NCBI GenBank assembly: GCA_903905455.1
Contig: CAIVGN010000120.1
Coordinates: forward strand, 1 to 58,313
DNA: 58,313 nucleotides
Reading direction: 5' to 3'
Source of the DNA: an uncultured Archangium sp.
Lineage (GTDB): Bacteria > Myxococcota > Myxococcia > Myxococcales > Myxococcaceae
Shown piece after piece: positions 1-58,313 of this stretch (positions are counted from its first letter, which is position 1; every line of letters starts with the position of its first letter). The notes beneath the pieces are model-generated. The model saw only the letters and a list, made by a program, of their open reading frames with translations, ran no database searches and was not told the origin of the DNA. Position numbers and translations under genes: made by a program.

Positions 1-2022
1 GTGCAGCAGCAGCCCCGCCCCGAGGCCCACCATGAAGAGCTGGGTCCAGGGAATGAGCTCGCCGTCACCGGCGCGCAGGGGCTCCATGAGGCGCAGGCCG
101 AAGAGCACCACGGTGGCGAAGGCCGCGCCGCGCAAGGTGCCACGAATCGAGGCCACCACGCCCAGGGCCGCCATCAACGCCAGCGCCACCAGCACCTGCA
201 GCGGCTGGCTGGGGAGCGAAGACAGGGCGAAGATCGAGAAGACCAGGGTGGTGATGGAGAACGACACCAGCACCCGCTCGACCTTCAGGAAGAACGTCGC
301 CCCGAGCAGCGCGATGCCCAGCACCAGCGGCGGGCCGAGCGCGAGCACCGGGTCCACCGCGCCGGGGCCGTCGAGCGAGTGCGAGGTCACGTTGACGAGG
401 TCGATGGCGAAGGCCACGGCCGGCGCCACGCCCACCAGCGGCTGCCACGCCATGCCCTTCTCGTCGCGGCCCAGCCACACCAGCAGCAGGGTCACGACGC
501 CGAAGCCGATGGAGAACGTGAGGTGCGATTCAGCGTGGGTGCTGCGCACGGCGGCGAGCAGCAGCACGCCCATCACGCCGGCGAGCAACCAGCGCGCCGA
601 GGCCCGGGCCGTGGTCCGTCGCGGGTCGGGCTGGGGCCACTCGACGTTGAGCACGGCGATCGCGCAGAGGCCGAGGTTCACCACGAGGAACATCACGCCG
701 GTCAGCTCGCTCGTGGCCCGCGAGGTGGCGGCCAGGGCGAGCACCGTCAACACCGCGCCCACGGACAGCGTGAGCAGGGCCTCTTCACCCTGCGCGGCCT
801 TGCGGTGAATGAAGCCCACCCCGACCAGGAGCACCGCGAGGAAGCCCGCGGTCGGCGCCAGGGGCACGGCCAGGGTGCTGCTGCTGGCGAAGTAGATCAG
901 CACCACCGTCGGCGTCAGCAGCGCGAAGGACTGCAGCAGGCGCGAGGCCGGCGTGGGCTCGTGCTCGTCGCTGAACCGGTCCGAGAACACCGCGAAGAGC
1001 ACGGCGAAGACGGCCATCACCGCGAAGGCGATCCACACCTGGCCTGGCTCCATGCGGCCGAAGACCCAACCGAACTCGAGCAGCACGGTCCCGCCCAGGG
1101 CGAGCGCGGCGACGCTCTTCCACCGCTTGAGGTACGCGACCCACAGCAGCGCGACGTCGAGGAAGAGCACGTACGAGAACAGGGAGATCGGCGCGTTCTG
1201 GCCGGTGGACAACATCAGCGGCGTGGCGAAGCCGCCCACGAGGCCTAAGTACGCGGCGAGCCGGTTGTCCTGCTTGACCGCGAGCACGCCGGCCACCGCG
1301 GTGATCAACACCATCAGCAGGAACGCCAGGGGGAACGGGATCAGATCGTAGAGCGACTTCGAGGCCCAGGTGGCCGCGTAGAGCACCACGATGCCGCCGC
1401 CGCCGAGCGCCTGGCCGGTGACCTCGTAGCGCTCGCGCAGCCGCTGCGACGCCACCAGGCCCCCGAGGCCCGCGAGCACCGCGCCGATCACGCGAATGGT
1501 CGGGGAGATCCACCCCTGGGCGATGGAGTACTTGAAGAGGTACAGCCCGGCCATGGCGAAGACGATGCCGCCGAGCACCGCGGCGCCGCGCACGCCGATC
1601 CACTTCTCCCACTCGAAGGGGGGCGCGGCAGGCACGGGCGGGGCCACCGGAAGCGGAGGCGGCGCCTCGACCTGCGGCTCGGGCGGGGCGGTCGGCGCCT
1701 CGAAGGTGTCGCTGACGGGCTGGGGCTCGAAGGCCTCACCCGGAGGCGGGGGCTCGGCGATCGGCTCCGGCTCGGCGCGAATCTCGGGCGGCGAGGCGAA
1801 GAACACCGGAGCCGCGACCGGAGCCTGCGCCTCGACCACCACCGGGGGCGCCGCGCGAAGGGCGCTGAGCTGCCGCTGCAGCAGCTCGAGCCGCAGCATC
1901 GTCATGTCGGCCTTCTTGTTCGCCTCGTCGGCTCGGCCGCGCGCCGTCCACGCGATGACGAACGCGGCGACCGTGGGGATCGCGGTACAACAGAGTCCAA
2001 AGCCCAAGACCGCCTCGTCCAT
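1..2022 (-). CDS. DUF2339 multi-pass membrane protein (3' end cut by window edge)
   Basis: Open from the ATG at 2022 to the window edge with no stop, so at least 674 residues. An N-terminal hydrophobic segment (about residues 5-24) is followed by a short charged coiled stretch and a Pro/Ala/Glu-rich linker (about 60-135). Then comes the DUF2339 hallmark WIGVRGAAVLGG, followed by a long series of hydrophobic helices that fills the rest. The family is an uncharacterised, very hydrophobic inner-membrane protein; no enzymatic motif is visible and I assign no function. It diverges from the histidine kinase at 2178 across 155 bp in which I could not identify a promoter. The family assignment is firm; the true C-terminus lies outside the window. 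Confidence 0.88.
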   Translation of the reverse strand, partial: MDEAVLGFGLCCTAIPTVAAFVIAWTARGRADEANKKADMTMLRLELLQRQLSALRAAPPVVVEAQAPVAAPVFFASPPEIRAEPEPIAEPPPPGEAFEPQPVSDTFEAPTAPPEPQVEAPPPLPVAPPVPAAPPFEWEKWIGVRGAAVLGGIVFAMAGLYLFKYSIAQGWISPTIRVIGAVLAGLGGLVASQRLRERYEVTGQALGGGGIVVLYAATWASKSLYDLIPFPLAFLLMVLITAVAGVLAVKQDNRLAAYLGLVGGFATPLMLSTGQNAPISLFSYVLFLDVALLWVAYLKRWKSVAALALGGTVLLEFGWVFGRMEPGQVWIAFAVMAVFAVLFAVFSDRFSDEHEPTPASRLLQSFALLTPTVVLIYFASSSTLAVPLAPTAGFLAVLLVGVGFIHRKAAQGEEALLTLSVGAVLTVLALAATSRATSELTGVMFLVVNLGLCAIAVLNVEWPQPDPRRTTARASARWLLAGVMGVLLLAAVRSTHAESHLTFSIGFGVVTLLLVWLGRDEKGMAWQPLVGVAPAVAFAIDLVNVTSHSLDGPGAVDPVLALGPPLVLGIALLGATFFLKVERVLVSFSITTLVFSIFALSSLPSQPLQVLVALALMAALGVVASIRGTLRGAAFATVVLFGLRLMEPLRAGDGELIPWTQLFMVGLGAGLLLH

Positions 2023-2177
2023 GGTGGCGGTGTAACACTGGTTGTCGCTGGCTCTTCCGTCCGTCTTGGCCTCGGCAGGAACCTGCGCCGCCGGGCCCCA
2101 TTCCCATGACACACGTCGGCGAGGGCTCAGCTGCTGACGCGGCGTTCCCCGGTGGTAGGCTTCGCGCCGGGGGGGTC

Positions 2178-4463
2178 ATGAACGCATTGTTGGGTGAACT
2201 CGTAGAGCGACTGCGGGTCGTCGCGCGCGCGGACGGCGCGGTGTTCTTCACGCACAGCACAGGGTCGTGGCGCGCGGAATGCGTGCTGGGCCCCCTGGTG
2301 GGCCACCCCGGCACCTACCGCACCTACCCCTCGGGCATGATCGCGCACGCGGTCGAGCGCCGGGGCCCGGTGCTGATGCGCGAGGTCGCCCTGGGCCCCC
2401 AGTTGGCAGAGGTGCTCGCGTCGCGCGGCATTCGCGACGCCCTCGCCCTGCCCTTGATCTCCTCCCAGGACTCCGTGCTCGGTGCCCTGGTGTTGCACTC
2501 GCTGAGCGACGCCGCGTTCACCGCCGAAGTCCAGGGGATGGCCCAGGCGCTGGCCGTGGCCATCACCGCCGTGCTCGAGCGCCGCGAAATGCCGGAGGTG
2601 GTCGAGCTCAACCGGCAGGCGGTCGTCGAAGAGAGCGAGCTGCGGTTTCGCGCCTTCATGGCGGCCGTGCCGGCGATGACGTGGGTGAAGGACGACAGCG
2701 GGCGGTACCTGTTCGCCAACCAGTTGATGGGCCAGTTGCTTCACAGCGGCCGCTCGCTGGTGGGGCTCACCGACTTCGACTTCTTGCCCGAGGAGGCGGC
2801 GCGCGCCGTGAGGGTCGACGACGACGCCGTCCGCGCCAGCGCGCAGGTGCTCTACCGCGAAGAAGACATCCCCACCCAGGACGGGGTGATGCACACCTGG
2901 CTCACCACCAAGTTCCCCATCGTCGACTCGAACGGCCGCGTCACGGTGGGCGGCATGGGCCTGGACATCACCGAGAAGAAGGCGGCCGAGCGGGCGCTGG
3001 TCCGCGCCGAGCTCGAGCTCGAGCACCTCGTCGACCTGCTCTCGGAGCCGGTGCTCATCCATCGCCACGGGCGCATCGCCCACGCCAACGGCGCGATGGG
3101 GCAGTTGATCGGGGTGCCCCGGGAGGCCTTGCTCGGGCAGGACCTGCGCGCGCTGATCTCCGCCGAGAGCCTCGCGGACTTCGAGGCGGGGCTCGCGGCG
3201 GTGGCCGTGGGCCAGAACGCCCGGAGCGAGCAGCGCATGCGCCACGCCGACGGCCGGGCCCTCATCGTCGAGGCGTCGGCCCAACCCATCACCCACCGCG
3301 GCGCACCGGCGACCCTGGCGCTGCTGCGTGACGCGACGTCCCGCCGCGCCGCCGACCAGCAGCTCCAGATGACCGACCGCCTGGTGTCCATCGGCACGCT
3401 CGCCGCGGGCGTCTCGCACGAGATCAACAACCCGCTCTCCTACGTGATGTCGAACCTCTCGTTGATGCTCGAGCAGGTCCCGCCCGAGGCCGGCGAACTG
3501 CACGAGCTGGCCCGCGATGCGCTCGACGGCGCCGAGCGCATCGGCCGCATCGTCGAGGGCATGCGCACCCTGGCCCGCCCCGCCGACCCCAGCAGGCGCG
3601 TGGCCGTCTCGCTGGAAGAGGTCGTGGGCCACGCCCTCGACCTGACGGCCAACGAGCTGCGCCACCGGGCCGACATCCAGGTCGATCTCGCGCACCTCCC
3701 GCCGGTGGTGGGCGACGAGACCGCGCTGGTCCAGGTCTTCGTCAACCTGCTCTCGAACGCCGCCCACGCCGTGGGGGCCGAGGCCAGCAGCCGCCACCAC
3801 GTGCGCCTCGGCGGCGTGGACCTCGGTGACGGCCGGGTGCGCGTCACCGTGAGCGACGACGGCGTGGGCATCGCGCGGGAGCAGGTGGCACGCGTCTTCG
3901 ACCCGTTCTTCACCACCAAGCCGGTCAACGTGGGCACCGGGCTGGGCCTGAGCGTGAGCCACGGCATCATCGCCGCGCACGGGGGCGAGCTGACCGTGGA
4001 GAGCGAGCTGGGCCGCGGCTCGACGTTCGCGGTCACCCTGCCCCGGGCCCGGCCGAGCGCGCCCCCGGCTCGCGTGGCGCTCCCCGTGGACGACGGCGCG
4101 CGGCGGGCGCGGGTGCTGATCGTCGACGACGACCAGCTCGTCGCGCGGGCCCTGTCCCGGCTGCTGGCGCGCCACGAGGTAGTGCTCGCCCCGAGCGCCG
4201 AGGCCGCCCTGGCGCTCTTCGGTTCCCGCGAGTTCGATCTCGTGCTGTGCGACGTGATGATGCCCGGCCTCGATGGCCCGCAGCTCTACGCGCGCGTCTC
4301 ACCCGGGCTCGCCGCGCGCTTCGTGTTCATCACCGGGGGCGCCTTCACCCCTTCGACCCGGGACTTCATGGCGAAGACCCACGTCCCCGTGCTGACCAAG
4401 CCCATCGATCGGGCCCGGCTCAACGAGCTCGTCGCCGCCGGCATTGCGCGCCGCGGGACCTGA
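2178..4463 (+). CDS. Hybrid sensor histidine kinase (GAF-PAS-PAS-HisKA-HATPase-REC)
   Basis: A 761-residue probably cytoplasmic kinase with no transmembrane segment. In order: a GAF-like domain (about 1-150), a PAS domain with the PAC-type end GMGLDITEKK (about 155-275), a second PAS (about 285-390), HisKA with the phospho-acceptor His414 in GVSHEINNPLSY, an HATPase domain (NLLSNAAHAVG, DDGVGI, GTGLGLSV) and a C-terminal receiver with Asp692 in LCDVMMPGLDG. It should autophosphorylate His414 and pass phosphate to its own receiver. No output domain or adjacent response regulator is present, so the downstream target is unknown. The frame is open back to 2106, but the ATG at 2178 follows a G-rich stretch and fits the GAF start best. 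Confidence 0.92.
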   Translation: MNALLGELVERLRVVARADGAVFFTHSTGSWRAECVLGPLVGHPGTYRTYPSGMIAHAVERRGPVLMREVALGPQLAEVLASRGIRDALALPLISSQDSVLGALVLHSLSDAAFTAEVQGMAQALAVAITAVLERREMPEVVELNRQAVVEESELRFRAFMAAVPAMTWVKDDSGRYLFANQLMGQLLHSGRSLVGLTDFDFLPEEAARAVRVDDDAVRASAQVLYREEDIPTQDGVMHTWLTTKFPIVDSNGRVTVGGMGLDITEKKAAERALVRAELELEHLVDLLSEPVLIHRHGRIAHANGAMGQLIGVPREALLGQDLRALISAESLADFEAGLAAVAVGQNARSEQRMRHADGRALIVEASAQPITHRGAPATLALLRDATSRRAADQQLQMTDRLVSIGTLAAGVSHEINNPLSYVMSNLSLMLEQVPPEAGELHELARDALDGAERIGRIVEGMRTLARPADPSRRVAVSLEEVVGHALDLTANELRHRADIQVDLAHLPPVVGDETALVQVFVNLLSNAAHAVGAEASSRHHVRLGGVDLGDGRVRVTVSDDGVGIAREQVARVFDPFFTTKPVNVGTGLGLSVSHGIIAAHGGELTVESELGRGSTFAVTLPRARPSAPPARVALPVDDGARRARVLIVDDDQLVARALSRLLARHEVVLAPSAEAALALFGSREFDLVLCDVMMPGLDGPQLYARVSPGLAARFVFITGGAFTPSTRDFMAKTHVPVLTKPIDRARLNELVAAGIARRGT

Positions 4464-4508
4464 AGTCGGAGGTTTGCCCACCCCGCCTTCCCGTGGTTGG
4501 GTGACGAG

Positions 4509-6182
4509 GTGATTCGCGAAGCGTTTCAAGACCTCAAGCGGCTGCGGCAGATCTCGATGATCGCCGCCCGCTATGGGTTCGCCGATCTCCTCCAGCGCAC
4601 CGGGCTGCGAAAGCCCGACGAGAAGACCGAGGTCGCCGAGACCGCCCGGGCTTCGAGCGTGGCCCGGCGCTTCAGCCTGATGCTCGCCGAGCTGGGGCCG
4701 ACGTTCGTGAAGCTGGGCCAGGTGCTCTCGACGCGCGCCGACCTGCTGCCGTCGGACTTCATCGAGGAGCTCTCGACGCTGCAGGACCAGGTGCCCCCGG
4801 TGCCCTTCGACCAGGTGCGCAAGCAGATCCGCGAGGCCTTCGGCAAGGAGCTGGAGGAGGTCTTCGCCGAGTTCGACCCCGTGCCCCTCGCCGCGGCGTC
4901 CATGGCCCAGGCGCACCGGGCGAAGACCAAGGGCGGCGACGAGGTGGTGGTCAAGGTGCAGCGCCCGGGCATCACCGAGCAGCTGCGGGCCGATCTCTCG
5001 GTGCTGCACTACGTGGCGCGCGCGCTCGAGGCGGTGATCGAAGAGGTGGGCGTCTACACGCCCACCGGCATCGTCGAGGAGTTCGAGAAGGCGGTGCAGG
5101 AGGAGCTCGATTTCCTCAACGAGGCCGCCAACATTCGCGCCTTCTACCGGAACTACCAGGCCGTCACCCACACCCGCATTCCGAAGGTCTACGACGAGCT
5201 CACCGCGCGCACGGTGCTCACCATGGAGTTCATCAACGCGCCCAAGCTCAACAGCGCCAACCTCGACGAGCGCTCGAAGCAGGCCCTGGCCAAGGCCATT
5301 CTCCAGGGGGCCTTCAAGCAGCTCTTCGAAGACGGGCTCTTCCACGGCGACCCGCACCCCGGGAACCTGCTGGTGCTCGAGGGGCCGGTGCTGGGGCTCA
5401 TCGACTTCGGGCTGGTGGGCCGCGTCACGCGGCAGATGCAGGACACCCTGGTGCAGCTGGTGCTGGCCATTGGGCTGAAGGACTCGGAGTCCACGGCGCG
5501 CATCCTGTACCGCATGGGCACGCCGGACTCGCGCACCAACCTGATGGCCTTCCGCAAGGACATCGACGCGATCCTCGGCACCTACCTGCCGACGTCCCTC
5601 AAGGACATCGACACCAAGCACATGCTGGCGGACATCTTGAACCTCGCGGTCAAGTACCGCATCCGCATCCCCAAGGAGTTCGCCATCCTCTCCCGGGCGG
5701 CGATCGCCATCGAGGGCGTGCTGCGCAGCCTGTACCCGGAGATGCCGATCAACGACATTTTCATGCCCTACGCCAAGCAGTTGCTGGGAGATCGCTACGA
5801 TCCCGCGCAGCTCCAGGGCAACGTGATGAAGACCCTCTTGCGGCTGCAGGGCGCGGCCGACGAGATGCCGCTGCAGCTGCAGCAGATCCTCCTCGATCTC
5901 GAGTCGGGCAAGTTCACCGTCACGGTGAAGGCCGACCAGATGACCGAGCTCAACAACACCCTGCGCGCCTTCGCGGTGGTGGCCTTCGCCGGCCTGTGCG
6001 CGTGCGGCTTCATCATCGGCACCTTCATCGCCTTCGCCAACAAGCCGGTGGAGGTCTGGGGCGTGCCGGTGATGGGGGTGCTCGGCATCGCGGCGACGAT
6101 CTTCCTCTTCAGCACCGCGATGGTCCGGCAGCTGTGGCGCGGGTTCCGCAAGGTATCGATCAAGCGCTTCTTGAAGAAGTGA
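4509..6182 (+). CDS. AarF/UbiB/ABC1-family atypical kinase
   Basis: A 557-residue member of the ABC1/UbiB family, membrane-anchored ATP-binding proteins linked to ubiquinone or other prenyl-lipid metabolism. Visible are the family KxGQ motif (KLGQ, 68-71), the catalytic-loop equivalent HGDPHPGN (from His279) and the metal-binding IDFGL (298-302). Two C-terminal hydrophobic helices (about 480-540) are followed by a basic tail. A TTG at 4497 and a GTG at 4509 are both possible starts; I chose GTG, and neither has a strong ribosome binding site. The gene ends back to back with the small lipoprotein on the other strand. Family certain, substrate unknown. Confidence 0.9.
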   Translation: MIREAFQDLKRLRQISMIAARYGFADLLQRTGLRKPDEKTEVAETARASSVARRFSLMLAELGPTFVKLGQVLSTRADLLPSDFIEELSTLQDQVPPVPFDQVRKQIREAFGKELEEVFAEFDPVPLAAASMAQAHRAKTKGGDEVVVKVQRPGITEQLRADLSVLHYVARALEAVIEEVGVYTPTGIVEEFEKAVQEELDFLNEAANIRAFYRNYQAVTHTRIPKVYDELTARTVLTMEFINAPKLNSANLDERSKQALAKAILQGAFKQLFEDGLFHGDPHPGNLLVLEGPVLGLIDFGLVGRVTRQMQDTLVQLVLAIGLKDSESTARILYRMGTPDSRTNLMAFRKDIDAILGTYLPTSLKDIDTKHMLADILNLAVKYRIRIPKEFAILSRAAIAIEGVLRSLYPEMPINDIFMPYAKQLLGDRYDPAQLQGNVMKTLLRLQGAADEMPLQLQQILLDLESGKFTVTVKADQMTELNNTLRAFAVVAFAGLCACGFIIGTFIAFANKPVEVWGVPVMGVLGIAATIFLFSTAMVRQLWRGFRKVSIKRFLKK

Positions 6183-6335
6183 TCACGGCGCGCCGGCGTC
6201 GGGCACTTCGCAGGCCACCTTCTCGGTGCCCTTGACCACGCACACCCGGGCCTCGCTGCAGGGCACGTTCGCGCACGGGTCGGCGGGACCACAGGCCGTG
6301 AAGGAGAGGCAGAGGACGAAGAGCGCACGAAGCAT
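6183..6335 (-). CDS. Small Cys-containing lipoprotein (50 aa)
   Basis: A 50-codon gene with a classical lipoprotein signal: MLRALFVLCLSFTAC, lipobox FTAC with Cys15. The mature part is about 35 residues, has four further Cys (DPCANVPC, ARVCVVK, VACEV) and ends DAGAP, like many myxobacterial surface lipoproteins. The Cys spacing recalls the small Cys-rich 'CxxxxC...C' units at the N-termini of larger myxobacterial lipoproteins, so this could be a minimal version or a remnant. The stop directly abuts the stop of the UbiB-type gene, and the ATPase gene at 6370 diverges from it. No function can be assigned. Its short length leaves some doubt that it is expressed. Confidence 0.6.
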   Translation of the reverse strand: MLRALFVLCLSFTACGPADPCANVPCSEARVCVVKGTEKVACEVPDAGAP

Positions 6336-6369
6336 GGCGCGGAAGCGTACTAGCGTCGGCCGCCCCCCG

Positions 6370-7017
6370 ATGCGCTTGTCGACGCACCACCTCTGCCTGC
6401 GCTTCGGCGCCGTCCACGCGCTCACCGACGTGACCCTCGAGTTCCCCGTCGGGAGCCGCACCGTGCTCTGGGGCCCGGCGGGCGGCGGGAAGACCTCGCT
6501 GCTCAAGTGCCTCACCGGCCTCGCCTTCGCCACCGCGGGTGACGTGCAGTGGGACGAGGTGAGCGTGGCCAGCCGCGCGCCCGAGGTGCGCCGCGACGCG
6601 CAGGTGGCCTTCGGCATGGTCTTCCAGAGCGACGCGCTCTTCGACTCGCTCACGGTGCTGGAGAACGTGCTCCTGCCACTGCGCCGGCGCCACGTGCCCG
6701 AGGCCGAGGCCCAGGCGCGGGCCGCCGAGGCCCTGGCACGCGTGGGGCTGACCACGGCGGCCCAGAAGCACCCCGAGACGCTGTCGGGGGGCATGAAGAA
6801 GCGCGCCGGCGTGGCCCGGGCCATCGTCGCCCGGCCCCAGGTGCTGATCGCCGACGATCCCTTCGCCGGCCTCGACCCGGTGACCGAGCAGTCCATCGCC
6901 GACCTGTTGATCGAGGTCTCGGAGGGCAAGACGTTGATCGTCGCCCTGCCCGACCCCGTGCCCTCGTTGCCGGTGGAGCTGGCGGTGCGCCTCGTCGCCG
7001 GGCGGGTGGCCTCGTGA
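6370..7017 (+). CDS. Mla/MCE-type ABC transporter ATPase, subunit 1 (degenerate catalytic site)
   Basis: A 215-residue ABC ATPase at the head of a phospholipid-transport (MlaF-like) operon. Walker A is GPAGGGKTS (35-43, Lys41) and the signature LSGGM (138-142) is canonical. The Walker B region reads VLIADDP (158-164), so Asp163 stands where the catalytic Glu should be. The H-loop His is also missing: the strand after the D-loop reads LIVALPDPVP instead of the usual VSHD. It therefore binds ATP but probably cannot hydrolyse it in its own site. The partner ATPase at 10629 has the opposite defects. The ATG at 6370 was chosen because the ABC fold begins immediately after it. A GTGA overlap joins it to the permease gene. 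Confidence 0.88.
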   Translation: MRLSTHHLCLRFGAVHALTDVTLEFPVGSRTVLWGPAGGGKTSLLKCLTGLAFATAGDVQWDEVSVASRAPEVRRDAQVAFGMVFQSDALFDSLTVLENVLLPLRRRHVPEAEAQARAAEALARVGLTTAAQKHPETLSGGMKKRAGVARAIVARPQVLIADDPFAGLDPVTEQSIADLLIEVSEGKTLIVALPDPVPSLPVELAVRLVAGRVAS

Positions 7018-7793
7018 TCGCGGCCCCCTTCCGCGCGCTGGGCGGGTTCGTGCTGTGGCTGACCCGGCTCGTCGGCGCGAACCTGATGGTCTTCGGCCGC
7101 ACGCTGCTGCACCTCCCGCGGCTCGACCTGGGGGAGCTGAGCCGGGGGCTGGTGCTCTTCGGCTTCCGCTCGCTGCCGCTCGCGCTGGGCGCGGGCACCT
7201 TGATCGGCGCCACGGTGGTGCTCCAGGCGGGGGTCTACGCCACCAAGTTCGGCGCGCGCCTCTACACCGGCTGGGCCGCGGGCTTCGCGCTGCTGTGGGA
7301 GTTCGGCCCGCTGCTGCTGGGCCTGGTGATGGCCGCCCGCATCGGCGCGCGCAACGCCGCCGAGCTCGCGCTGCTCACGGTCAACGGGCAGATCGAGGGC
7401 CTGCGGGGCATCTCCCTCGACCCCTTCCGCATTCTCGTGGCGCCGCGGGTGGTGGCCAGCGTGATCTCGGTGATGGCCCTGACCACCTCGACCTTCCTCG
7501 TCTCGATCCTCTGGGAAGCGGTGGCCGCGTACTTCACGCTCGAGCTCCCGGTGCGCGTCTTCTTCGGCGCGTTCTCCGACATGTTGCGCTGGGGCGACCT
7601 GGTGGGCGGCGTGGCCAAGACCACCGCCTTCGGGCTGGCCATCGCGGTGGTCTCCACGGCGGCGGGCTTGCGCGCGTCGGGTGGCGCGCGCGGGGTGGGC
7701 CAGGCCGCGGCGGCCTCGGTGGTCACCAGCTGCGCTGCGATCTTCACCCTCGACTTCCTCCTCACCCCGCTGCTCGCCCGGGTGTTCGGGTGA
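7014..7793 (+). CDS. MlaE-family permease, subunit 1
   Basis: A 259-residue polytopic protein of the MlaE/permease family that carries lipids between the inner membrane and an MCE protein. The N-terminal amphipathic/interfacial helix is followed by the typical core: GATVVLQAGVYATKFG, the conserved LLLGLVMAARIGARNAAEL and the EIG/EL-type loop VNGQIEGLRG. About five hydrophobic segments can be counted. It starts with GTG at 7014, overlapping the ATPase stop (GTGA), and its own stop overlaps the next GTG in the same way. With a second, diverged MlaE next to it, it is probably one half of a heterodimer rather than a homodimer. Confidence 0.88.
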   Translation: MIAAPFRALGGFVLWLTRLVGANLMVFGRTLLHLPRLDLGELSRGLVLFGFRSLPLALGAGTLIGATVVLQAGVYATKFGARLYTGWAAGFALLWEFGPLLLGLVMAARIGARNAAELALLTVNGQIEGLRGISLDPFRILVAPRVVASVISVMALTTSTFLVSILWEAVAAYFTLELPVRVFFGAFSDMLRWGDLVGGVAKTTAFGLAIAVVSTAAGLRASGGARGVGQAAAASVVTSCAAIFTLDFLLTPLLARVFG

Positions 7794-55597: not shown

Positions 55598-56686
55598 TCA
55601 GTGAGAGCCGGCGTACGTGGGCTCGATCTGCAGCACCTTCGCCTTGAGCTTCGGGTCGTCGGCCACGTCCTGGCCCAGCAGCACCCACTCGAGCTTCGCC
55701 GTCTTGCCGGTGGCCCCGCTCTTCTGCGCCAGCGCGGTGGCGAGCTCTTGCTGGCGGCGCTTGAGGTCACCGAGCGTGCGCCGGAGATCGGCGGTGGCGG
55801 TCTTGTCCTTCGCTGCGCGCACCCGGTCTTCCAGCGTCGTGACCTGCTGGCCCACGAAGTCGAGCTGCTGGCGATCGCGATCCCCCAGGGAAAGGTCGAC
55901 GAAGCCGCCCTTGCCCTTGTCGAGCGTCAGCTGCAGCTTGCCCAGCGCCTGGCCCTTCTGCGCCGAGGCCAGCAACAGCGCGGCCCCCTCTTCCATGCGC
56001 TGCGCGGGCTGCGTGCCCCGGTACTCGCCCGACTGCATCACGAAGTCGACGTCACCCTTGAGCTCGGTCGAGAGCTGCATCGCGTCGGCGTAGGAGGTCG
56101 CGGCGAGCACGATGGTCACGTCGCGCGGGCCCAGCACCTTGAGCGCGGCGCGCGCGGCCTCGAGGGTCGCCCCGGCCACCACGTCTTTCTCGTTGGGCGC
56201 CACCGGCCCCGGCGCGGTGAGCCCGACGAGCCCCACCTTCACCCCGCCCGCGTCGATCACCACGCCGGCCTCGAAGAGCCGCTGGCCGCCACGCTTCAGG
56301 TTCGCCGAGAGCAGCTTGAGCTTGCGGCCCTTCGCCAACCCCTCGAGGAACACGGTTCCCGCGGCGAGATCGCGCTGCCCCACGGCCATGGCCCGGGTGC
56401 CCAGCTCGTCCATCACGCCCAGGATGAGCGTCGCCCGCTTCTGGTCGTCGGCCGTCGCCACGCCCGCGTTGCGGAAGAGCGCGTTACCCGAATCGAGCAC
56501 CAGCACGTTCGCCGTGCCGAGCTGGTTCAACACCGTTCTGCGCCTGGCCAGACCGCCAGTGGGATTGGCGTGTCAACCACAGGGGGCGACTTCGCCCCCG
56601 TTGTCCCCTTCGAAGAGAATGGTCAGCTGCTTGCCGCCGGCCAGGGCGGGCACCGCGAGCAACGTCACGAGCCAGAGGAGCCTCAC
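55598..56686 (-). CDS. Candidate selenoprotein: exported UshA-like protein with Cys-Gly-Sec motif (in-frame UGA)
   Basis: Read from the GTG at 56686, the frame gives a signal peptide (MRLLWLVTLLAVPALA), then KQLTILFEGDNGGEVAPCG, an in-frame UGA at codon 38 (56573-56575), then HANPTGGLARRRTVLNQL and on to a stop at 55598, 362 residues with selenocysteine. The fold up to about residue 210 is that of UshA-type 5'-nucleotidases (VLVLDSGN, TRAMAVGQRDL, LLSANL, VGLVGLTAPGP). However, the metal ligands NDxH, GD and GNHE have become GDNG, GN and GQRD, so phosphatase activity is doubtful. The C-terminal third is coiled coil. GTGA overlap with the CpoB-like gene fixes the start. A hairpin after the UGA resembles a bacterial SECIS. 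The alternative is a nonsense mutation or sequencing error. Confidence 0.75.
56544..56575 (-). promoter_or_regulatory. Putative bacterial SECIS element following an in-frame UGA
   Basis: After the UGA (56573-56575) come exactly 18 nt and then GGUCUG. This sequence forms the loop (56554-56549) of a perfect 5-bp hairpin, CUGGC (56559-56555) with GCCAG (56548-56544). As I recall it, E. coli fdhF also has 18 nt between UGA and GGUCUG, and its GGU loop is what SelB binds. The stem is short and the lower part is unpaired. Confidence 0.7.
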
Positions 56687-57465
56687 TTCTTGGCGCCCTT
56701 GCGCAGCTCGGCGAGCTTGGTCTTCGCCGTCTTCGCCGCGTCGCTCTTGGGGTGGCTCTTGACGAGCTCCTCCAGCGCGAGCCGCGCCTCGTCATTCATC
56801 TTCAGCTGCTTGAAGCACTCCGACGAGCGCAGGTAGGCCACCGGCGCCGACTTCGTCTTGGGGTGCTCCTGGATGACCTTGCCGAATTCGTAGAGCCCCT
56901 CGCGGCACTTCTGCTCGCCGAAGAAGAGCTCGCCCAGCGCGAAGTGCGCCTCGCCGATGCCCTCGTCGCGCGGCCACTTCTTCATGAACTCCGCGTACAG
57001 CTTGCGGCCCAGCTCCGTCTCGCCGGCCTTCACCTTGTCGTCGGCCAGCTTGAGGAAGTCCTTCGGGTCGTCGGGGCGCTTGAGCTCTTCCTTCTTCGGC
57101 TCCACCGGCGTGGCCGTGCCGTTGGTGGCGGGCTGGGCCGCGAGCTTGCCCTCGAGCTCCTGCATCTTGAACTGCTGCGACTCGATCTGCCCGCGCAGCA
57201 CGGCCATGTCCTGCAGCGCCGTGTCGACCTTCACGCCCATGTTGGCGCCGGTGGTGCGGCTGGCCCGGTCGAGCTGGTCGAGGGCCGCCTGGAGCTGCCC
57301 CGTCGCGTCCTCGAGCTTGCCCCGCGTCTCCGCGAGCTCGGCCTTCAACTTCACGTTGTCGGCAGCCAGGCCGTCGAGGCGGTTCTCGACCACGCGACCC
57401 CGGTCAGCAGGAAAAAAGCAGCCAGTGAAGACGACGGCACACAGCGCGACGGTCAGGCGAAACAT
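56683..57465 (-). CDS. CpoB/YbgF-like lipoprotein with TPR repeats
   Basis: A 260-residue lipoprotein (MFRLTVALCAVVFTGC, lipobox FTGC, Cys16). A long coiled coil follows (about 25-105, VENRLDGLAADNVKLKAELAETR cut short here), then a Pro/Lys linker and C-terminal tetratricopeptide repeats (about 135-255: GRKLYAEFMKKWPRDEGIGEAHFALGELFF, GLYEFGKVIQEHPKTKSAPVAYL in part). This is the layout of the Tol-Pal-associated CpoB/YbgF, which coordinates outer-membrane constriction with peptidoglycan synthesis, although the usual tol-pal genes are not next to it. Its stop overlaps the GTG of the selenoprotein candidate, so translation of the two is coupled. Confidence 0.85.
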   Translation of the reverse strand: MFRLTVALCAVVFTGCFFPADRGRVVENRLDGLAADNVKLKAELAETRGKLEDATGQLQAALDQLDRASRTTGANMGVKVDTALQDMAVLRGQIESQQFKMQELEGKLAAQPATNGTATPVEPKKEELKRPDDPKDFLKLADDKVKAGETELGRKLYAEFMKKWPRDEGIGEAHFALGELFFGEQKCREGLYEFGKVIQEHPKTKSAPVAYLRSSECFKQLKMNDEARLALEELVKSHPKSDAAKTAKTKLAELRKGAKK

Positions 57466-57527: not shown

Positions 57528-58313
57528 TCAGCTGCGACGACGGCGCGCGCGCAGCAGCAACCCCAGGGCCGCGAAAGGCAGCAACTCGAGCCCACTGGCG
57601 CAACCGCAGCCCCTGGTCATGGGGGCCAGGTCCGTGGTCGGCGTGGGGTTCTTGATGACCACGTCGACCACCGCGGGCGCGGAGGCCTGCGTCGGGTCGC
57701 GCACCACGAGCTGCAGCTTCACCACGTCGCTGACCAGCACCGCGGGCGCCTGGAAGGTGACCGTGTCGGTGGTGGCCCCCGTCAGCGCCACCTCCGGGCC
57801 CCCGACCTGCGACCACTCGTAGGTGATGGCGTCGCCGTCGGCGTCCCCGCCTGAGCCGAGCACCGTCACCGACTCGCCCATGAGGGCCTCCTGGGTGGCG
57901 GGCACGGTGGCCGTCGGCGCGCGGTTGACGTTCTTGACCAGCACCGTCTGCTCCCGCGGCTGCGACACCGCGCGGCCATCGCTCACCGTGAGCTCCAGCG
58001 AAATGAGCGTGTCCACCGTCACCTCGGGGGCCGTGAAGGTGCCGCCGGTGATCGTCACCTGCGGGCCCGCGACCTGCGTCCAGGTGAGGGTCAGCGGGTC
58101 GCCGTCCGGGTCCGTCGCCGAGCCCACCAAGGTCACCTGCGAGCGCTCGTCGACCTCGACGTTCGGCCCGATGGTCACCGTGGGCGCGCCGTTGGTGCAG
58201 GTGTTGGGGTCCGAGGTCACGCTGGTGAAGGGCTTGTTGGTGATGCCGGTGAACGAGATGTCATCGACCTCCCAGCCCTTGGCCGCGGCTGCGTCGTCAG
58301 CGCCGATGCGGAA
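57528..58313 (-). CDS. C-terminal part of a secreted metallopeptidase-like protein (probably M36) with PKD/Ig-like repeats and MYXO-CTERM tail
   Basis: Open to the right window edge, so the N-terminus is missing; 261 residues are visible. The first part, FRIGADDAAAAKGWEVDDISFTGITNKPF, matches the end of myxobacterial M36 (fungalysin-like) metallopeptidases. Two PKD/Ig-like repeats follow (ATDPDGDPLTLTWTQVAGPQVTI and DADGDAITYEWSQVGGPEVAL, both shortened here), then a MYXO-CTERM-like sorting tail: GCGC, a hydrophobic helix (LELLPFAALGLLL) and RARRRRS. The tail should tether the protein at the outer surface after processing. The peptidase identity is inferred only from the end region. Confidence 0.75.
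   Translation of the reverse strand, partial: FRIGADDAAAAKGWEVDDISFTGITNKPFTSVTSDPNTCTNGAPTVTIGPNVEVDERSQVTLVGSATDPDGDPLTLTWTQVAGPQVTITGGTFTAPEVTVDTLISLELTVSDGRAVSQPREQTVLVKNVNRAPTATVPATQEALMGESVTVLGSGGDADGDAITYEWSQVGGPEVALTGATTDTVTFQAPAVLVSDVVKLQLVVRDPTQASAPAVVDVVIKNPTPTTDLAPMTRGCGCASGLELLPFAALGLLLRARRRRS

Follow-up and report, generated by a model that had tools for sequence, protein, structure and literature searches.

A gene on the minus strand of a contig from an uncultured Archangium sp. carries one in-frame UGA near its 5' end, raising the question of whether this codon is a stop or specifies selenocysteine (Sec), and what the protein would then do. The window, i.e. the whole stretch of DNA analyzed here, is 58,313 nucleotides long and the gene occupies positions 55598-56686. 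The evidence below makes it very likely that the gene belongs to a short myxobacterial branch of UshA-like CxU selenoproteins, with Sec insertion, probable export and a probable redox role covered by a single explanation. Actual Sec insertion, export and redox role are the parts of this best explanation that we infer.

The gene and its reading frame

The sequence-only reading had described a frame running from 56686 to 55598 with a single UGA at codon 38, directly after Cys-Gly. Translation of the minus strand with TGA read as a residue confirmed both points, yielding a protein of 362 aa (GTG start, TGA stop) with Sec38 as its only internal UGA residue, in the context ...GGEVAPCG-U-HANPTGGLARR.... 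The CxU motif Cys36-Gly37-Sec38 is encoded at 56573-56581 (minus strand), with the Sec codon TGA at 56573-56575. Residues 1-16 (VRLLWLVTLLAVPALA, 56639-56686, minus strand) resemble a signal peptide, as judged by eye from the translation. Under the standard code the longest open reading frame is 311 aa, starts at a GTG 3' of the UGA and excludes the signal peptide.

The start of the gene overlaps by 4 nt with a conserved neighbor at 56683-57465 (minus strand), which encodes a TPR lipoprotein-like protein (YbgF/CpoB-like, 260 aa, lipobox-like FTGC). Downstream neighbors differ: the window has a TIGR02996 gene and a Myxococcus-like genome the gene for ribosomal protein L31. Further upstream of the TPR gene in the window, near the contig end, an open frame at 57528-58220 (minus strand) has PKD/Ig-like domain matches. 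In a Myxococcus-like genome (G084, L171, positions 18-7325) the TPR and selenoprotein genes are preceded by a chemosensory cluster with MCP, CheA-type kinase and CheB.

Selenocysteine machinery of the source genome

We searched the source genome for the genes required for Sec incorporation, as the sequence-only reading had proposed, and found all four: selA, selB, selC (tRNA-Sec) and selD score above the curated cut-offs. The genome is myxobacterial, its closest named relatives being MAGs of Archangium and other Myxococcales. In the same genome, a match to formate dehydrogenase alpha (L175, G000:C133:141536-143407) likewise contains one in-frame TGA and is a probable second selenoprotein, so the UshA-like gene is probably not the only Sec user there. 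Wholesale reassignment of TGA was rejected, as the gene's own terminator is TGA.

A SECIS hairpin downstream of the UGA

Published limits for bacterial SECIS elements are a loop of 3-9 nt, a stem of 4-16 bp, a G within the first two loop positions, a spacing of 16-37 nt and a minimum free energy of at most -7.5 kcal/mol (PMC13188914). The hairpin CTGGC-GGTCTG-GCCAG at 56544-56559 (minus strand) falls within all of them, with a loop of 6 nt starting with GG (GGTCTG, 56549-56554), a stem of 5 bp, a spacing of 18 nt after the UGA and -9.5 kcal/mol. That this loop and this distance are exactly those of Escherichia coli fdhF had been claimed before and proved correct; the 46-nt fdhF reference matched annotated fdhF genes at 100%.

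Folding of the RNA after the UGA supported the hairpin in part. All 56 nt following the UGA in the window prefer another structure (-18.1 kcal/mol, z -0.49), whereas omission of the first 9-12 nt, as if they were inside a ribosome paused at the UGA, leads to prediction of the SECIS hairpin. Taken alone the window hairpin does not rise above chance, and we consider it real because it is conserved across the UGA genes. As evidenced by codon usage, conservation reaches the nucleotide level: the loop Gly codon is GGT in 71 of 73 UGA genes versus 2 of 27 Cys genes, counted over distinct sequences and uncorrected for relatedness. Across the alignment of Sec genes, the codon for Gly44 is GGC in 72/72, that for Gly45 GGT in 71/72 and that for Ala47 GCC in 69/69; beyond codon 60 the conserved positions of Sec genes are mostly variable in codon. 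The stem covaries, with 17 cells changed on both sides versus 4.1 in shuffles. One pair is U-A (44) or G-C (7), another occurs as U-A, A-U, C-G and G-C. In genes with Ala47 replaced by Pro the pairing is offset by a single base, and a hairpin persists with GGUCU as its loop. The fdhF-like character of the element is thus borne out by the fdhF comparison, the stem analysis and the covariation. A search of the source genome with the Rfam model SECIS_1 (RF00031) gave no match, which carries no weight since the control genomes gave none either.

Hairpin loss is seen in the complete genome G048, which has neither selA nor selB and whose Cys form is nested within a Sec clade. Compared with G041, it has synonymous changes in 5 of 8 SECIS-zone codons and in 69 of 288 codons in the rest of the gene, while Sec-Sec pairs show 0/8 such SECIS-zone changes in four pairs and 1/8 in one more distant pair. 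The switch to Cys in G048 was accompanied by synonymous changes that destroyed the hairpin.

At UGA38, SelB carrying Sec-tRNA would bind the hairpin with the GGUCUG loop 18 nt downstream, and selenocysteine would be inserted; at the terminal TGA, which has no SECIS context, translation would stop.

Selenocysteine and cysteine exchange among homologues

A protein search of 144 related genomes identified 79 in which a homologue is interrupted by a single TGA; wherever the codons of a locus were inspected, this TGA follows PCG. Among the named carriers are Myxococcus xanthus strains, other Myxococcus, Archangium violaceum, Citreicoccus and Hyalangium. UGA forms of greater divergence come from Anaeromyxobacter and from MAGs of Marinimicrobia and Chloroflexi. 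Other homologues have Cys at position 38, as the sequence-only reading had expected, making it a site of Cys/Sec exchange. Immediately upstream, the TPR lipoprotein gene is present at 105 Sec loci and at 8 Cys loci (five genomes), counts in which some contigs are doubled because they are present in two collections. Its presence beside both forms indicates that Sec and Cys were exchanged at a single orthologous locus.

The two forms were compared with the Sec machinery in lists of genomes compiled by hand from the homologue and sel-gene searches. selA was found in 77 of the 79 UGA-form genomes; the two in which it was not detected are incomplete MAGs (80% and 87% complete), and selB is present in one of them. 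Among good matches, seven genomes have only the Cys form, and six of these lack both selA and selB over cut-off. One genome (G018) has the Cys form yet retains both selA and selB. The homologues are related by descent, and counts across genomes are not independent. Change to Cys is scattered over several lineages: in a 50-row tree the Sec/Cys label changes 8 times, at least 7 of which are forced by well-supported branches. The simplest reading of these sequences is that Sec would be ancestral and was lost repeatedly, on a tree whose root is not known.

Several single loci are worth recording. L111, in a genome (G096) that forms a long branch of unsure placement, is a Cys form still containing GGC GGT CTG; selA and an over-cut-off selB were not found in G096, perhaps a case of recent Sec loss. 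Several large Myxococcaceae genomes carry, beside the Sec form, short Cys paralogues without the TPR neighbor (L052, L054, L055, L057, L063, L066, L070, L084, L088, L092 and L099). A record titled 'Comamonas sp. KCTC 72670' (L147, BNCN01000006.1) has a Myxococcus-like locus and is probably mislabeled. A scan of viral contigs yielded no relative.

These data bear on the simplest alternative, in which the TGA is a real stop resulting from pseudogenization or a sequencing error and the frame beyond it is a separate or dead gene. The 311-aa standard-code frame 3' of the TGA is indeed open. However, the identical TGA recurs in 79 genomes of many genera, from isolates as well as MAGs, the frame and the protein are conserved on both sides of it, and a change from TGA to TGC is found mainly where selA and selB are absent, all of which makes a real stop extremely improbable. 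A pseudogene was rejected on account of the conservation of the TGA among homologues. With the UGA aligned to Cys in homologues, a downstream hairpin within the bacterial SECIS limits and selA, selB, selC and selD in the genome, it is strongly supported at the sequence level that 55598-56686 encodes a putative selenoprotein.

A second hairpin upstream of the UGA

Another hairpin precedes the UGA. It consists of GGGGGCG-AAGT-CGCCCCC (56582-56599, minus strand; codons 30-35) and has 7 bp, with 6 nt separating its end from the UGA. Nearly all Myxococcaceae Sec genes, along with L100 and L104, have it intact; in Anaeromyxobacter and the majority of other distant Sec forms it is weak or missing, and the Cys orthologues have lost it. 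In simulations preserving peptide and codon usage, its z-score is about -2 to -4 for the Sec genes of Myxococcaceae, compared with about 0 for Cys genes. Few changes affect both sides of the helix, a clear case being L041 with C-G changed to A-U, and consequently the loss linked with that of Sec is the main evidence for it. These codons may also be conserved for some other reason.

The upstream hairpin lies too near the UGA to fold under the ribosome, which leads us to speculate that it acts before the ribosome arrives or by refolding behind it. It is a tentative and rather doubtful proposal that Sec insertion uses both the downstream SECIS and this hairpin, as an undescribed cis element tuning ribosome pausing or RNA refolding. 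No description of a hairpin upstream of a Sec UGA was found in our non-exhaustive literature search, and a Sec-linked hairpin in this position seems undescribed.

A UGA near the 5' end, flanked by two hairpins, could also be a selenium-sensing switch that sets the amount of full-length protein, with regulation outweighing the Sec residue itself. Against this, the protein is also conserved in Cys forms that lack the hairpins, so that it is the full-length product that selection maintains; moreover, Cys36 is invariably C and position 38 invariably C or U. We consider such a switch very unlikely.

Fold and possible function of the protein

We modeled the protein with AlphaFold (mean pLDDT 91.9). 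The fold is that of the N-terminal domain of 5'-nucleotidases, of the metallophosphoesterase type (Z about 31), in support of the UshA-like assignment made earlier. A Pfam search of the window protein gave no match. The C-terminal substrate-binding domain is absent, as the protein has 362 aa and the model aligns only with the N-terminal part of 5'-nucleotidases; a long helical hairpin spans residues 249-307 of the mature model. The CxU motif is located in the loop following the first strand, a site of metal ligands in UshA. Of the seven metal and catalytic positions of UshA, a single one (Asp28) is kept. The other six differ (in UshA numbering, H43 to G, D84 to N, N116 to Q, H117 to R, H217 to A and H252 to G).

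Longer relatives matching NF041198 contain 3-4 CXXCH motifs and also match cytochrome c554; this tetraheme part is fused to the PCG(C/U) domain in Cys forms as well as in a single Sec form (L109). Such c554-like fusions were seen at L112-L119, L107 and L109; L109 (G093) has the loop GGCUUC in place of GGUCUG. The fusion in long relatives suggests redox chemistry by the PCG(C/U) domain. The short form has no CXXCH, and next to it no electron partner is encoded, the TPR gene being the only conserved neighbor. The sequences suggest a short branch without hemes, or one with hemes from elsewhere.

Could the protein instead be a working metallophosphoesterase like UshA, with Sec or Cys taking the place of a metal ligand and selenium serving metal binding or hydrolysis rather than redox chemistry? 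The 5'-nucleotidase fold, the position of CxU within the UshA metal-ligand loop and the Asp84- and His-equivalents retained in some distant relatives would fit. On the other hand, six of the seven metal and catalytic positions are altered in the window protein, the C-terminal substrate-binding domain is missing and relatives are fused to hemes. This makes a phosphatase unlikely, and it is the ligand loss in particular that led us to downgrade this function. Because the tetraheme domain is absent and six of seven UshA residues are lost, the product is probably a periplasmic thiol/selenol redox protein and not a phosphatase, a role that we deduce from the domain fusion in relatives and from the ligand loss. 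Cys36-Gly-Sec38 would probably act as a thiol/selenol redox pair. The product would probably be exported and co-expressed with the TPR lipoprotein of the overlapping upstream gene, a candidate partner or scaffold.

Significance

The findings add a widespread putative selenoprotein to the myxobacteria, including M. xanthus, for which the literature searched contains no such report. Text searches of papers accessible without subscription, combining selenoproteins with Myxococcus or Myxococcota, returned nothing relevant; an earlier report may exist. Since the curated models miss this branch at their cut-offs, its members are probably annotated as truncated hypothetical proteins. Repeated Sec/Cys switches, accompanied by the disappearance of selA and selB and by erosion of the hairpins, form a natural experiment on selenocysteine loss, and the upstream hairpin offers a simple test case for the effect of pre-UGA sequence on recoding. 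The tetraheme fusions point toward a redox role in a family named after phosphatases.

Comparison with known systems

UshA-like (COG0737) selenoproteins with a CxU motif appeared in the 2008 GOS selenoproteome (PMC2398784) and UshA-like selenoproteins are also covered in reviews (PMC9312934, PMC13188914), while the NCBIfam models NF041198 and NF049981 describe UshA-like (seleno)proteins. The claim of the sequence-only reading that no selenoprotein of this family had been described therefore fails. What looks new here is the myxobacterial short branch with its operon, repeated Sec/Cys switches and upstream hairpin.

The window protein shares the PCGU/CxU motif and the same domain with NF041198 (E 4e-47, model positions 19-374). 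It differs in its score of 160.9 bits against a cut-off of 275, which 0 of 147 genomes of the class reached, and in that the match ends at position 374 of 519, so that the C-terminal part is missing, which is a tetraheme cytochrome in the long relatives examined. With NF049981 (family 2) it shares the same broad domain in a weak match of 42.5 bits, but the cut-off of 140 is not reached, nor is it by any of 60 relatives, and the window protein has CGU (CxU) where the motif of that family is CxxU (PMC13188914). E. coli UshA and other 5'-nucleotidases (1ush, 2z1a, CD73) have the same N-terminal domain fold (Z about 30-31), from which the window protein departs by loss of most metal and catalytic residues and of the C-terminal domain and by gain of Cys-x-Sec. 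At the RNA level, the window gene and E. coli fdhF share the 18 nt from UGA to a GGUCUG loop; the stem sequence differs, the stems of the UGA genes show no clear bulged U of the E. coli kind, and the window gene has an additional hairpin upstream of its UGA.
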